DNA of 64,000 bases, taken from Rhodanobacter sp. PCA2. Its GTDB lineage: Bacteria; Pseudomonadota; Gammaproteobacteria; Xanthomonadales; Rhodanobacteraceae. The notes under the pieces were generated by a model that was not told the origin of the DNA, did no database searches, and saw nothing but the letters and a program-made list of their open reading frames with translations. A program made the translations under genes and the position numbers. The stretch spans positions 1-64,000 of the forward strand of contig NZ_NJIC01000051.1 of the NCBI RefSeq assembly GCF_013620825.1, written 5' to 3'. Numbering within the stretch: position 1 is the stretch's first letter; every line of letters begins with the position of its first letter. Of this stretch, positions 12,056-57,567 are shown piece after piece.

Positions 12056-13447
12056 ATGAGCGCAACCACCGCACCACCCGCCAACACGCACGGCAAGGCT
12101 GCCGCGATCTTCGTCTGCGTACTCGCCGCGCTCGCCGGCCTGATGTTCGGCCTCGACATCGGCGTGATCTCCGGCGCACAGCAGTTCCTGCAGAAAGACT
12201 TCGGCATCAGCGACGACACCCTGGGCTGGATCGTCAGCATCATGATGTTCGGTGCCGCGCTGGGCGCGCTCGTCGCCGGCTGGCTGTCCAGCCAGCTGGG
12301 CCGCAAGCGCACGATGATCCTCGGTGCCGTACTGTTCGTCGGCGGCTCCGTGGTGTGCGGCATGGCGCCGACGCCGGAGGTGTTGCTGGTGGGTCGCCTC
12401 GTGCTGGGCATCGCCATCGGCCTTGCGAGCTTCACCGCCCCGCTGTACCTCGCCGAGGTCGCGCCGGAATCGATCCGCGGCGCGATGATCTCGATGTACC
12501 AGCTGATGATCACCATCGGCATCCTGGTTGCTTTCCTCTCCGACACCGCGCTCAGCTACACGGGCAACTGGCGCTGGATGCTGGGCGTGATCGCGATCCC
12601 CGGCGCACTGTTCCTGCTCGGCGTGGCCTTCCTGCCGGAAAGCCCGCGCTGGCTGATGATGAAGGGCCGCGACCCGGAGGCCGAGCAGGTGCTGCAGCGG
12701 CTGCTAGGCAACCGCGACGCCATCTCCCGCGAAATGGGCGAGATCCGCGAACAGCTGAAGACGCCGCAGCGCGGCGTGCACATGTTCTTCCAGAACTCGA
12801 ATTTCCGCCGTTCGGTGGGCCTGGGCATGCTGCTGCAGGTGATGCAGCAGCTCACCGGCATGAACGTGGTGATGTATTACGCGCCGCGCATCTTCCAGGG
12901 CATGGGCTACGACACCGAGTCGCAGATGTGGTTTACCGCGATCGTGGGCCTGGTCAACGTGCTCGCCACCTTCATCGCCATCGGCCTGGTGGACAAGCTG
13001 GGCCGCAAGCCCATCCTCTACGCCGGCTTCGTGGTGATGGCGATCGGCCTCGGCGTGGTCGGCACCATGATGCGCCTGGGCATCCACACGCACGGCGAGC
13101 AGTTCTTCACCGTGGGCATGCTGCTGGTGTTCATCGTGGGCTTCGCAATGTCGGCCGGTCCGCTGATCTGGACGCTGTGCTCGGAGATCCAGCCGCTCAA
13201 GGGCCGCGACTTCGGCATCGGCTGTTCCACCTTCACCAACTGGGTGGCCAACTCGCTGGTCGGCCTCTCCTTCCTGCCGCTGCTCAACAGCATCGGCCAG
13301 GCCGAGACGTTCTGGCTGTACGCCGCGTTCAACGTGGTGTTCATCGGCCTCACCATCTGGCTGGTGCCGGAGACCAAGGGCGTCACGCTGGAGCAGATCG
13401 AGCGCAACCTGATGGCCGGCAAGGCGCTGCGGCGGATCGGCCAGTAG
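12056..13447 (+). CDS. galP: GalP-type sugar:proton symporter (MFS)
   Basis: Inner-membrane major-facilitator symporter of 463 residues with 12 predicted helices. It is strikingly similar to E. coli GalP along its length, including FVC.LAALAGL.FGLDIGVI, SMMFGAA, TAPLYL.E.APE.IRG, QLMITIGIL, QVMQQ.TGMNV.MYYAP and CSEIQPLKGRDFGI. Sugar-porter signatures GRKR, PESPRW and PETKG are present. GGGGAGA precedes the ATG. It likely imports D-galactose, possibly also L-arabinose, released by the locus hydrolases. Confidence 0.92.
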   Translation: MSATTAPPANTHGKAAAIFVCVLAALAGLMFGLDIGVISGAQQFLQKDFGISDDTLGWIVSIMMFGAALGALVAGWLSSQLGRKRTMILGAVLFVGGSVVCGMAPTPEVLLVGRLVLGIAIGLASFTAPLYLAEVAPESIRGAMISMYQLMITIGILVAFLSDTALSYTGNWRWMLGVIAIPGALFLLGVAFLPESPRWLMMKGRDPEAEQVLQRLLGNRDAISREMGEIREQLKTPQRGVHMFFQNSNFRRSVGLGMLLQVMQQLTGMNVVMYYAPRIFQGMGYDTESQMWFTAIVGLVNVLATFIAIGLVDKLGRKPILYAGFVVMAIGLGVVGTMMRLGIHTHGEQFFTVGMLLVFIVGFAMSAGPLIWTLCSEIQPLKGRDFGIGCSTFTNWVANSLVGLSFLPLLNSIGQAETFWLYAAFNVVFIGLTIWLVPETKGVTLEQIERNLMAGKALRRIGQ

Positions 13448-13449
13448 GC

Positions 13450-14526
13450 ATGCGCATCGCCTGCGGCCCCGCGTCCGGATCGCGCACCACGACTGGACGC
13501 GGGCGCCGCACTGTCCTCGCGGCATGGGCGCTCGCCTGCCTCGCCGCCCTGCCCGGCCACGCGCGGGCCGGCGAGACCTTCCGCAATCCCCTGCTGCCCT
13601 CGGGCGCGGACCCGTGGGTGGCGCAGCGCGACGGCGTCTACTACTACACGAGCACCCTGGGCGACCGCATCGCGCTGTGGAAGACGCGCGACATCGGCCG
13701 CCTGGACAAGGCGCCGGTCACCGTGGTCTGGCGCGCGCCGGCCAGCGGGCCGGAATCGACCTCGGTGTGGGCGCCCGAGCTGCACTTCATCGCGGGCAAG
13801 TGGTACCTGTACTACACCGCTGCGGACAAGGCGCACGACGACGACGCGCATCGCCACGTGTTCGTGCTGGAGAACGCCTCGGCCGATCCCACGCAGGGCC
13901 AGTGGGTGTCGCGCGGCATGCTGAAGACCGCCCGCAACGGCATCGACGGCACCGTGTTCGAACTGCGCGGCAAGCTGTACTTCGTGTATTCCGCCTACGT
14001 CGGCGACCGCAGCGACCTGGTCATCGCGCCGATGACCAACCCCTGGACGCTGGGCCAGCCGGAAGTGGACATCGCCCAGCCCACCTACGCGTGGGAGATG
14101 CAGGGCGGACGCAAGATCCTCGAGGGGCCGGAATTCCTCGAAGGCCCCACCGGCAGGCTGTTCCTCAGCTACTCGGCCAGCGCCTGCTGGTCCGACCACT
14201 ACGCGCTGGGCCTGCTGGGCGCGGCGCCGGATGCCGATCCGCTCGATCCCGCCGCGTGGCACAAGTCGCCCACGCCGGTGTTTGCCCAGTCGCCCGCCAA
14301 CGGCGTCTATGCGCCGGGCCACAACGGCTTTTTCGAGTCGCCGGACGGCACGCAGACCTGGATCATCTACCACGCCAACGGCGGCCCCGGCTGGAAGTGC
14401 GGTACGCGCCGCTCGCCGCGCATCCAGCAGGTGCATTGGCGCTCGGACGGTACGCCCGATTTCGGCGTGCCGGCGAAGGCCGGCGAAGCGCTGGCCGTGC
14501 CGTCGGGACAGACGGCCACGCCTTGA
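13450..14526 (+). CDS. Secreted GH43-family glycoside hydrolase
   Basis: A 358-residue exported five-bladed beta-propeller hydrolase, last gene of the dgo operon and only 2 nt after galP. The signal peptide is cleaved near HARA-GE (about residue 41). GH43 catalytic residues fit Asp in SGADPWV (base), Asp in NGIDGTVFE (pKa modulator) and Glu in ILEGPEFLE (acid). The family includes alpha-L-arabinofuranosidases, beta-xylosidases and exo-galactanases; alpha-L-arabinofuranosidase is the best context-based guess. It is related to the second GH43 at 18650-19711. Confidence 0.85.
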   Translation: MRIACGPASGSRTTTGRGRRTVLAAWALACLAALPGHARAGETFRNPLLPSGADPWVAQRDGVYYYTSTLGDRIALWKTRDIGRLDKAPVTVVWRAPASGPESTSVWAPELHFIAGKWYLYYTAADKAHDDDAHRHVFVLENASADPTQGQWVSRGMLKTARNGIDGTVFELRGKLYFVYSAYVGDRSDLVIAPMTNPWTLGQPEVDIAQPTYAWEMQGGRKILEGPEFLEGPTGRLFLSYSASACWSDHYALGLLGAAPDADPLDPAAWHKSPTPVFAQSPANGVYAPGHNGFFESPDGTQTWIIYHANGGPGWKCGTRRSPRIQQVHWRSDGTPDFGVPAKAGEALAVPSGQTATP

Positions 14527-54405: not shown

Positions 54406-56589
54406 TCAGAAATCCTTCTGCAGGCTGAGGTACACGCCGCGGCGCGGGCCGAACTGCGGCGCGCCCACGCCGATGCCGGTGCCGTCGCGCAGTTCGTAGG
54501 TACGGTCCAGCGCGTTGATCAGCGCGAGCTGGGTGTGCAGCTTGCCGAACCCGTCGAACGCGAAATCGTGCGACACGCTGAGGTCGAGCTGGAAGTACGC
54601 CGGCAGGTGCGCGCCGTTCGGCACCGCGCCGTCGCTGCGCAGGCCGGTGCCGAACAGGTAGTTCGCGCCCAGCCTGGTGCCGTCGCCCAGCGCGTAGCTG
54701 ATGCCGCCGGACGAGCTGTACTTCTGGTCGTGGTCGAGGTGGATGTAGTGGTTCGCGATGTAGGCCAGGTCGTCGGGGCTGAAGTTGTACTGGCTGGTGA
54801 TCACGTCCTTGCCCATCGCCTTGCTGTACGCGAAGTTGAAGTAGCCGGACCACGGGCCGCTGTCGTAGCTGGCGGTGAACTCCACGCCGGCCACGCGGCC
54901 CAGCCGGTAGTTGAACGTGGAATAGACCAGCGCCTGGCCGAACTGGCCTTCGTCCTGCAGGCGGTGCAGCTTGCGGTAGTAGCTGTCCAGGCCCAGCGTC
55001 CAGGCCTTGCCGAAGTTCTGCGAGATGCCCAGGTCGAAGTAGTCGGCGCGCTCGGCCAGCGGCTGCGCGTTGCCGGGGCTGGACACCGCGTTGGTGGTGC
55101 CGTCGAAGCGGTCGATGTTCGAGGTGGTGATCATCTCGGTGGCGGGCGGCGTGAAATAGCGCGAGTAGCCGGCGTGCACGGTGGTGCTGTCGGTGGCCTG
55201 CCAGACCACGCCCAGGCGCGGGCTGAGCTGGCTGCTGGTGGTGCCGGCCAGCGTGTACTGGTCGCCGCGCAGGCCGTAGTTCACCGTCCAATCCTGGCCG
55301 ATGCTCCATTCGTCCTGCACGTAGGCCGACCAGGTTTTCGCGATCAGCTTGTTGTTGTCGACGATGTTGATCGGCGTGGTGCTGCTCTGGTTGCCGTCGG
55401 CGTCCGCGGGGAACACCCAGGCGTCGTTGCCGCTGGCGGCGCGCTCGAAGCTGCCGTACACGCCGTAGCGCAAGGTGTGGGTGTCGTTGAGCGGGGTGGA
55501 GAAGTCCGCCTGCAGCGTGCTGGCGCGGTTGCTGCGGCCCACGTTCGCGGCGACGCCGTTGAACATCAGGTCGCCGACCAGGTCGGGGCTGTAGGTCAGG
55601 CTGGTGTAGCGCTGGCCCAGCGACACCTGGTAATCGGTGCCGCCCAGCTTGCCCTGCAGGCTGAGCACGCCGAAGCGGGTGTTCTCGCGCTGCCGCTCGT
55701 TGAGCCTGGCGGAGTCGAATTCGGTGAGGCCGAGATAGCCGAACTGCGGCTCCTGGCCCGGGTTGTTCGGGATCTGGAAGCGGTTGTTGGTGACGCCGAA
55801 CATGAAGGACAGGCGGGTGTCGTTGTCGATCAGGTAGGAGATGTCGCCGAAGCCCTTCACCTGGTTGGTGTGGTCGTGCACCGGCTTGCGGCTGGACGTG
55901 GGGTTCTCGATGCCCACGTCGTTCTCCAGATAGTTGCCGGTGAGGTACCAGCTCCAGCGGTCGGTGCTGCCCCAGATCGAGGCGTTGGGATTGAGCATGC
56001 CGAACGAACCGCCGGTGATGCCCACGCTGCCGCCGTTGCCGAGGTCGTGCCCGCTCTTGGTGGTGATGTCCACCACCGCGGCGGTGCGCAGGCCGTACTG
56101 CGCGGGCAGCGCGCCGTCCAGCAGGTTCACGCTCTGGATCATGCGCGTGTCCAGCGTCTGGCCGAAGCCGGAGATGGACTCGGGCACGATCACGCCGTTG
56201 ATGCGGTACTGCAGGTTCGCGTGGTCGCCGCGCACGTGCAGGCCGCCGTAGGAATCCTGCACCACGCCCGGCGCCTGCAGGATCACCTGGTTCAACGGCG
56301 TGGCCGCGCCCAGCGGCAGCGCCTGGATCGCCTTCTGGTCGATCACGTACTGGCTGGAACCGGTGTCCGGCGACAGCGCGTTGCGCGCCTGGTCCAGCGC
56401 GGCGGAGACGCTGATCGCGCCGAGCTCGTGCACCTTGGGCGCCGGCTTGTTGCGCGTGGCGCCCTGGGTGTCGTCCGTGGGCGTGGCGGGCGCGACGGCG
56501 GCGCCGGCGGGGGCATCGCCCGCGTTCGCACGGGAGGAGATCAGGCACAGCGCGGCGGCGAGACCGAGGGCAAGCGGGGAAAGCTTCAT
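54406..56589 (-). CDS. TonB-dependent receptor under a Zur-like box
   Basis: A 727-residue outer-membrane receptor. The signal peptide ends ANA (residue 23). The plug carries VVQDSYGGLHVRGDHANLQYRING and the barrel ends in GVYLSLQKDF with the terminal Phe. Its gene is preceded by the perfect palindrome GTAATGTTATAACATTAC (56646-56663), which resembles Zur-binding sites. Zinc or a zinc-carrying ligand is therefore the best predicted substrate (inference). The start at 56589 begins a normal signal peptide; the long frame extending to 57717 is rejected because it runs antisense to two genes. Confidence 0.85.
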   Translation of the reverse strand: MKLSPLALGLAAALCLISSRANAGDAPAGAAVAPATPTDDTQGATRNKPAPKVHELGAISVSAALDQARNALSPDTGSSQYVIDQKAIQALPLGAATPLNQVILQAPGVVQDSYGGLHVRGDHANLQYRINGVIVPESISGFGQTLDTRMIQSVNLLDGALPAQYGLRTAAVVDITTKSGHDLGNGGSVGITGGSFGMLNPNASIWGSTDRWSWYLTGNYLENDVGIENPTSSRKPVHDHTNQVKGFGDISYLIDNDTRLSFMFGVTNNRFQIPNNPGQEPQFGYLGLTEFDSARLNERQRENTRFGVLSLQGKLGGTDYQVSLGQRYTSLTYSPDLVGDLMFNGVAANVGRSNRASTLQADFSTPLNDTHTLRYGVYGSFERAASGNDAWVFPADADGNQSSTTPINIVDNNKLIAKTWSAYVQDEWSIGQDWTVNYGLRGDQYTLAGTTSSQLSPRLGVVWQATDSTTVHAGYSRYFTPPATEMITTSNIDRFDGTTNAVSSPGNAQPLAERADYFDLGISQNFGKAWTLGLDSYYRKLHRLQDEGQFGQALVYSTFNYRLGRVAGVEFTASYDSGPWSGYFNFAYSKAMGKDVITSQYNFSPDDLAYIANHYIHLDHDQKYSSSGGISYALGDGTRLGANYLFGTGLRSDGAVPNGAHLPAYFQLDLSVSHDFAFDGFGKLHTQLALINALDRTYELRDGTGIGVGAPQFGPRRGVYLSLQKDF

Positions 56590-56645
56590 GAGGCGCGGGT
56601 TCCAGTCTGGGGCGGCTCCGGCCCACGCGGGCCGGATCAATTTTC

Positions 56646-56663
56646 GTAATGTTATAACATTAC
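56646..56663 (-). promoter_or_regulatory. Zur-like operator, perfect 18-bp palindrome
   Basis: GTAATGTTATAACATTAC is fully self-complementary and contains the TGTTATAACA core typical of proteobacterial Zur boxes. It lies 57-74 nt upstream of the TonB receptor start in unusually AT-rich DNA. Confidence 0.7.
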
Positions 56664-56793
56664 CGACATCGACCGCAGCCGACCCGGGCCACAAGTCATG
56701 GTCGCGTGAAGACGCACGCCGATTGGGCGCCGCTTCATGCCAGGCGCCTAGACTGGCCTGCACGCGCCAGCCGGCGCGCCCATGGAGTGCGCC

Positions 56794-57567
56794 ATGAGCC
56801 AGCAACGCCCGCCCGAGGGCGATCGCGCCGGGAGCAGCCGCCAGGTTCCGGCGGTGATCGGCAAGCACGAGGAGGCGAACCGCGTCACCCAGGCCATCCT
56901 CGATTTCGTCAGCCGCATCCCCGACAGCAAGGTGGACGGCGCGGCCGATCCGAAAGCACAGGCGCGCCAGCTCGCCGGCCGCGCCGCGCAACGCGCCGCG
57001 CTCACCGCCGGCACGCTCGCGCTGCCGCCCGGGCCGCTGGGCTGGCTCACCGTGCTGCCGGAGCTGGTGGCGATCTGGCGGATCCAGGCGCAGATGGTCA
57101 GCGACATCGCCGCCGCCTACGGCCGCCACGCCGAGCTGGGCCGCGAGCAGATGCTGTACTGCCTGTTCCGCCATACCGCGGCGCAGGCGTTCCGCGACCT
57201 GGTGGTGCGCATGGGCGACCGCCTGCTGTTCCGCCCCATGTCGTACGCGGTGGTGGAACGCATCGCCAAGCATCTCGGCGTGAAACTCAGCCAGCGCGCG
57301 GTGGGCGAAGGCGTGTCGCGCTGGCTGCCGGTGATCGGCGCGCTGGGCGTGGGCGCCTACGCGTACTACGACACCGGACAGGTGGCCGCCACCACCATGG
57401 AGCTGTTCGACCACGGCATCGAATACCAGACCGGCGATGCGCCAACGGAACCTCCGCCGCTCGCACAGCACGGCGTTCCACCGGCACGCAAGGCCACGGG
57501 CAAGCTCGCCAGTGCGGTACGCAAGGTCGCCACGCGCAAGCGCCGCCCGCCGTCGGACGAAACCTGA
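56794..57567 (+). CDS. EcsC-family protein
   Basis: 257 residues. The EcsC domain spans about residues 40-210: LPPGPLGWLTVLPELVAIWRIQAQMVSDIAAAYG, GRDRL-like LFRPMSYAVVERIA, and the C-terminal hydrophobic VGEGVSRWLPVIGALGVGAYAYYDT. Function of the family is unknown; Bacillus EcsC is associated with an ABC transporter, but no such genes are nearby. The start at 56794 has GGAG 7 nt upstream; ATG 56782 is an alternative. The C-terminus is basic and Pro-rich. Confidence 0.82.
   Translation: MSQQRPPEGDRAGSSRQVPAVIGKHEEANRVTQAILDFVSRIPDSKVDGAADPKAQARQLAGRAAQRAALTAGTLALPPGPLGWLTVLPELVAIWRIQAQMVSDIAAAYGRHAELGREQMLYCLFRHTAAQAFRDLVVRMGDRLLFRPMSYAVVERIAKHLGVKLSQRAVGEGVSRWLPVIGALGVGAYAYYDTGQVAATTMELFDHGIEYQTGDAPTEPPPLAQHGVPPARKATGKLASAVRKVATRKRRPPSDET

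Follow-up and report, generated by a model that had tools for sequence, protein, structure and literature searches.

An 18-bp palindrome, GTAATGTTATAACATTAC, lying 56 nt ahead of the start codon of a TonB-dependent receptor gene in Rhodanobacter sp. PCA2, is most likely a Zur operator that keeps this gene blocked when zinc is sufficient. The window, that is, the whole stretch of 64,000 nucleotides that was analyzed, and the genome around it contain the features listed in Table 1. Zur is taken to be the regulator by association, through the motif that the site shares with the zur/merC site of the same genome and with sites at zinc genes of relatives, and the receptor is very probably zinc related and repressed by Zur. 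In the proposed mechanism, zinc-loaded Zur would bind the palindrome under zinc sufficiency, possibly with two dimers occupying overlapping sites 5 bp apart, and would prevent the receptor gene downstream from being transcribed. Upon zinc shortage, Zur would dissociate and the receptor would be made, which would use TonB energy to bring zinc or a zinc complex through the outer membrane. In this explanation we infer the binding, the repression, the occupancy by two dimers, and the ligand.

Table 1 Features of the predicted Zur-controlled receptor locus. Positions are those of the window, except for the Zur candidate on contig C4 of the same genome.
Feature	Position	Strand	Basis
Predicted Zur operator, 18-bp perfect palindrome GTAATGTTATAACATTAC (two overlapping dimer sites)	56646-56663	.	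Exact coordinates
First overlapping single-dimer site, GTAATGTTATAAC (RNNNYxxxRNNNY)	56646-56658	+	4/4 purine/pyrimidine positions; 1 mismatch to GTTA-N5-TAAC
Second of the two overlapping single-dimer sites, GTTATAACATTAC, shifted by 5 bp	56651-56663	+	4/4 purine/pyrimidine positions; 1 mismatch to GTTA-N5-TAAC
56-nt spacer from operator to start codon of the receptor	56590-56645	-	Contains GC-rich hairpin 56617-56636
TonB-dependent receptor, 727 residues, predicted Zur target	54406-56589	-	ORF; Pfam Plug and TonB_dep_Rec_b-barrel above cut-off; AlphaFold2 model
EcsC-like reading frame	56782-57567	+	Pfam EcsC 24.8 bits, under the 30.4 cut-off; start 118 nt from the site
Zur candidate P0003, FUR family	C4:12689-13198		Own genome

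The palindrome is perfect (9+9), and the first-pass annotation had given its sequence and coordinates exactly. It was the sole match at up to 3 mismatches both within the window (0 in 100 shuffles) and in the whole 3.91-Mb assembly. A search for its 12-bp core at up to 2 mismatches found 5 other places in the assembly, which look like chance, given 2 mismatches at every one of them and 3 matches of the reversed pattern used as control. The context, at first described as AT-rich, turned out to be GC-rich, with the AT-richness confined to the site itself. No sigma-70-type promoter was found around the site by a consensus scan, so that the blocking of a promoter element by Zur is only a possibility here. 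The hairpin between the operator and the start codon, with a run of T behind it on the plus strand (1 found vs 0.2 expected in shuffles), would fall in the receptor leader if the transcript starts upstream.

The palindrome was compared with published Zur sites. Escherichia coli Zur binds RNNNYxxxRNNNY as a single dimer and the 18-bp repeat RxxxYRxxR*YxxYRxxxY as two dimers, as described in the sections of PMC4219657 on which we draw. The window 18-mer agreed with the two-dimer motif at 8/8 positions, and with the base-specific E. coli motif TGWNAYRWTATAWYRTNWCA, taken from the same sections, at 18/18 inner positions and 18/20 positions of the full 20-mer. Among 69 sites of relatives (up to 6 mismatches), 66 fitted the two-dimer skeleton at 8/8 and 3 at 7/8. 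A shorter Zur core, GTTA-N5-TAAC, is called conserved in many proteobacteria in the part of PMC4176598 used here.

Conservation was analyzed in 71 loci obtained from one receptor scan of named genome contigs, mostly of Rhodanobacter, Dyella, Luteibacter, Frateuria, and Fulvimonas, by taking, from a stretch of about 480 bases spanning the start of each receptor match, the 18-mer with the fewest mismatches. The results showed that 65 of the 71 relatives carried the site before the orthologous receptor with no more than 5 mismatches in its 18 positions, vs 3 of 2130 resampled stretches (first-order Markov). There were 0 mismatches in 14 loci, 1 in 4, 2 in 7, 3 in 6, 4 in 17, 5 in 17, 6 in 4, and 9 in 2. 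The six loci outside the threshold were L052, L053, L062, and L074, with 6 mismatches, and L071 and L076, with 9; L071 is a distant relative (50% identity), and L076 has a receptor fragment only. An exact GTTA-N5-TAAC was absent from L052, L053, L062, L066, L069, L071, and L074. The first in-frame ATG followed the site by 8-72 nt where one was found, with none found in 4/71 loci. Among the 65 sites, 15 of the 18 positions carried 0.7-2 bits (position 16, 0.74), positions 2 and 17 were weak (0.16 and 0.48 bits), and the flanks held 0.02-0.78 bits, most of them below 0.5. In two loci, L076 and L077, a similar site (5 and 3 mismatches, respectively) stood ahead of an adjoining ZIP gene.

The genome encodes two FUR-family proteins, the Zur-like candidate on contig C4 and a second one on C55 (145.6 bits). 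The candidate matched the E. coli Zur chain 4mtd with an E value of 4.4e-35 and 7dh7, annotated as "Fur family" only, with 5.8e-53; its top NCBIfam model was Zur, at 142.8 bits, below the cut-off of 167. In the alignment to 4mtd, Y45, D49, R52, and R65 were kept. According to the sections of PMC4219657 cited above, Y45 and R65 are DNA contacts, D49 and R52 form dimer-dimer salt bridges, and the D49/R52 pair is generally conserved among gram-negative Zurs; the pair is described as limited to enterobacterial and actinobacterial Zurs in the portion used of a review (PMC6103462).

Behind the zur gene lies a second site, TTGTTATAATGTAACAT, whose 13-bp core begins 46 nt past the stop codon of zur, with 9 nt left between the end of the core and a MerC-family gene, which a CDF transporter gene follows. 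This site fitted 7/8 of the two-dimer skeleton and contained a full single-dimer site. The pattern GNWAYRTTATAAC was built from the receptor sites of relatives, the zur/merC site being already known by then. At up to 1 mismatch, it matched only the receptor promoter (in both orientations) and the zur/merC site in the whole genome, each with 0 mismatches; the reversed control had 2 matches on one strand and 4 on the other. Set against further Zur sites of the genome, as far as such sites were available, the first-pass annotation held up, the sole other GNWAYRTTATAAC match lying directly behind zur and before merC-CDF; there was no znuABC site for comparison, because the ZnuA model had no match in this genome. 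GTTA-N5-TAAC with 1 mismatch occurred at 46 places vs 221 for the reversed control, and since the loose core was rarer than its control, only exact or context-supported matches were used. At the other exact match in the genome, C13:68572, no zinc gene was recognized nearby by eye. In the region of the zur locus (L096:5246-6805), the order is a Zur-type site, the MerC-like gene, and a ZitB-like CDF transporter. The CDF family is normally an exporter family, and its place behind an apparently repressive Zur site is odd.

The zur/merC site of this genome does not fit a longer pattern, GNWAYRTTATAACRTWNC. Of 147 genomes of the family, 77 carried this longer pattern, and the reversed control had 0 matches among those listed. 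Around such sites, 39 regions were chosen from the matches listed, with second sites and less usual genomes favored, so that the following proportions are biased. The 39 regions held 45 motif sites, 42 of which adjoined the receptor or zinc-related genes: 23 preceded the orthologous receptor (2 of them common to a divergent merC), 11 the merC-CDF genes of the zur locus, 3 a ZIP gene, and 1 a second zur with a ZnuD-like receptor gene behind it, and 4 adjoined ZrgA or a second MerC. The remaining 3 sites (L133:2501, L142:2501, and L144:2501) had no nameable zinc neighbor; a FAD-binding enzyme, a Band 7/SPFH protein, and an S46 peptidase were seen near them. One relative, L148, carried a second zur, the ZnuD-like receptor (425.6 against the NF038289 cut-off of 950), ZrgA, and a second MerC beside two motif sites (L148:2501-5151 and 12798-13836).

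Receptor and zur were neighbors in 9 genomes (G042, G096, G055, G070, G083, G138, G001, G027, and G008). A Zur match within the up to 4 kb covered on either side was present in only 2 of the 71 named loci (75% and 36% identity), indicating that proximity to zur is not the rule; it is absent in the genome studied here as well. Together, the motif at ZIP, ZrgA, MerC-CDF, and second zur/ZnuD-like receptor genes and the receptor-zur neighbors support the reading of the palindrome as a Zur-like box.

Among 200 genomes of the order that were searched, the receptor was found at E 1e-80 or better in 43, of which 13 belong to another family (f2). In 12 of these 13, GTTA-N5-TAAC occurred just once in the fetched 4.2-5.8 kb and lay 11-51 nt ahead of the receptor's first in-frame start codon; the thirteenth locus (L213) had an 18-bp variant with 4 mismatches. 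Agreement with the base-specific motif was 12-15/18 at the 12 f2 sites (at the better offset or at either), vs 16-18/18 in the 69 relatives and 18/18 in the window, and it is plausible that the receptor operator is of a tighter two-dimer type in the family of the window than in f2. The two-dimer purine/pyrimidine skeleton is a loose criterion and failed as a means of telling the window site from the f2 sites, which also reached 6-8/8.

These data also bear on the alternative that an unrelated regulator binds a palindrome that happens to resemble a Zur site, which we consider very improbable. An even-centered perfect palindrome is unlike the odd-centered Zur sites of Caulobacter, and just one other pattern match was present in the genome. 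However, an even center is what two overlapping Zur dimer sites would produce, and that one other match sits behind zur. Moreover, the receptor-zur neighbors in 9 genomes and the plain Zur core of the f2 orthologs argue for Zur itself.

The receptor behind the site was confirmed as a TonB-dependent receptor of the length first proposed, with a plug (25.3 bits; cut-off 23.9) and a barrel (110.4; cut-off 27) in Pfam. Its AlphaFold2 model contained the plug and 22 barrel strands (mean pLDDT 75.9, pTM 0.77), and the best 50 PDB structural matches listed were all TonB-dependent transporters with 14-16% identity. The PDB sequence and fold searches gave no ligand class, returning only generic TonB-dependent transporters; the ligand may be zinc, a zincophore, or another zinc complex. 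NCBIfam yielded weak matches to heme, siderophore, and other receptor models, and the ZnuD family (NF038289) had no match at E 0.001. Five histidines (His118, His123, His238, His472, and His620) were identical in 32/32 aligned sequences, and His118 and His123 lie near each other in the plug.

The weak heme and siderophore scores, the siderophore receptors among the structural matches, and the second FUR-family protein would fit a site bound by the iron regulator Fur in front of an iron-siderophore receptor. We give this a slighter chance still, as the receptor scores in NCBIfam are all far below the cut-offs and sites of the motif in relatives lie at ZIP, ZrgA, MerC-CDF, and zur genes. In addition, the site has a central TATA, which the relevant sections of PMC4219657 report for the Zur site of E. 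coli but not for its Fur box.

The first-pass annotation had also held that the receptor was the only gene the site could control in its direction, which the sequence by itself does not warrant: the palindrome is a symmetric site between two divergent genes, with the EcsC-like frame on the other side, and joint control of both genes is possible. An EcsC match was kept near the receptor, across the site, in 61/71 loci. That the Zur site mainly serves the EcsC-like gene, or both genes, is nevertheless no more probable than the Fur alternative, given that 7 of the 10 EcsC-less loci (L029, L046, L057, L061, L066, L069, and L077) keep the site at up to 5 mismatches before the receptor, that the site accompanies the receptor beside zur and in f2, and that it is less than half as far from the receptor start as from the EcsC start.

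The genome was also searched for a route for zinc across the inner membrane. The ZnuA family model, which matched 11/14 control genomes, had no match in it. The ZrgA search had none either, and as it matched none of the control genomes, it is uninformative on absence. The one ZIP-family match (C22, 39.4 bits; cut-off 35.1) lay among mercury-operon-like genes; its region (L149) contained no match to the 18-bp pattern, and a one-mismatch GTTA-N5-TAAC place lay about 170 nt behind the match. By eye, ORFs resembling MerR, MerT, and MerP precede the ZIP-family protein there (L149:789-3217), which may be a mercury operon that includes a metal transporter. The boxed MerC-like protein, whose family takes its name from mercury transport and whose gene is paired with that of the CDF transporter, is a candidate for the passage of zinc across the inner membrane. 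A broader reading, which we regard as unlikely, is that the motif-visible Zur regulon here consists of the receptor and the MerC-like protein with its CDF transporter, that the MerC-like protein could be the inner-membrane zinc-importer partner of the receptor, and that the receptor operator may have changed between the tight two-dimer palindrome here and the plainer GTTA-N5-TAAC in f2. The overlap of the f2 sites with the two-dimer skeleton lowered our estimate for the operator change.

The Zur reading provides a likely trigger, zinc shortage, for a receptor that many Rhodanobacter-, Dyella-, and Luteibacter-type genomes carry and that received no specific family assignment in this analysis. 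The orthologous receptor promoters, with their two forms of Zur site, are material for a direct binding comparison, and MerC-family proteins are possible members of Zur regulons. Among the papers listed by a literature search, mostly of open-access literature, none appeared to treat Zur in this bacterial group.

The arrangement is of a known kind, and its mild novelty lies in the receptor without a ZnuD match and in the MerC-like proteins that recur at the sites. Like the window site, the E. coli Zur operators are 18-bp inverted repeats with 8/8 purine/pyrimidine agreement and a central TATA, and E. coli Zur, like the Zur candidate, has Asp49 and Arg52. The window site lacks the motif's outer T...A, however, and the target here is a TonB-dependent receptor in a genome where the ZnuA model matched nothing. 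According to the sections of PMC4176598 cited above, EMSA showed binding of Caulobacter crescentus Zur to the promoters of three TonB-dependent receptor genes with the core GTTA-N5-TAAC, namely znuK, znuL, and znuM. There, as in the control predicted here, TonB-dependent receptors are linked to Zur through a GTTA...TAAC core; the listed Caulobacter sites are single and odd centered, whereas the window site is an even-centered palindrome. The Caulobacter vibrioides control genome was also without a ZnuA match. ZnuD is likewise a TonB-dependent receptor, but the window receptor did not match its family, and a ZnuD-like receptor was found behind the boxed second zur of one relative (L148). In Xanthomonas campestris, the Zur regulon includes two TonB-dependent receptors and a CDF exporter that Zur activates at a different, GC-rich sequence (PMC6103462, in the portion used). 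As in the present genome, TonB-dependent receptors and a CDF transporter are thus linked to Zur in that regulon, and the f2 orthologs of the window receptor carry Zur cores.
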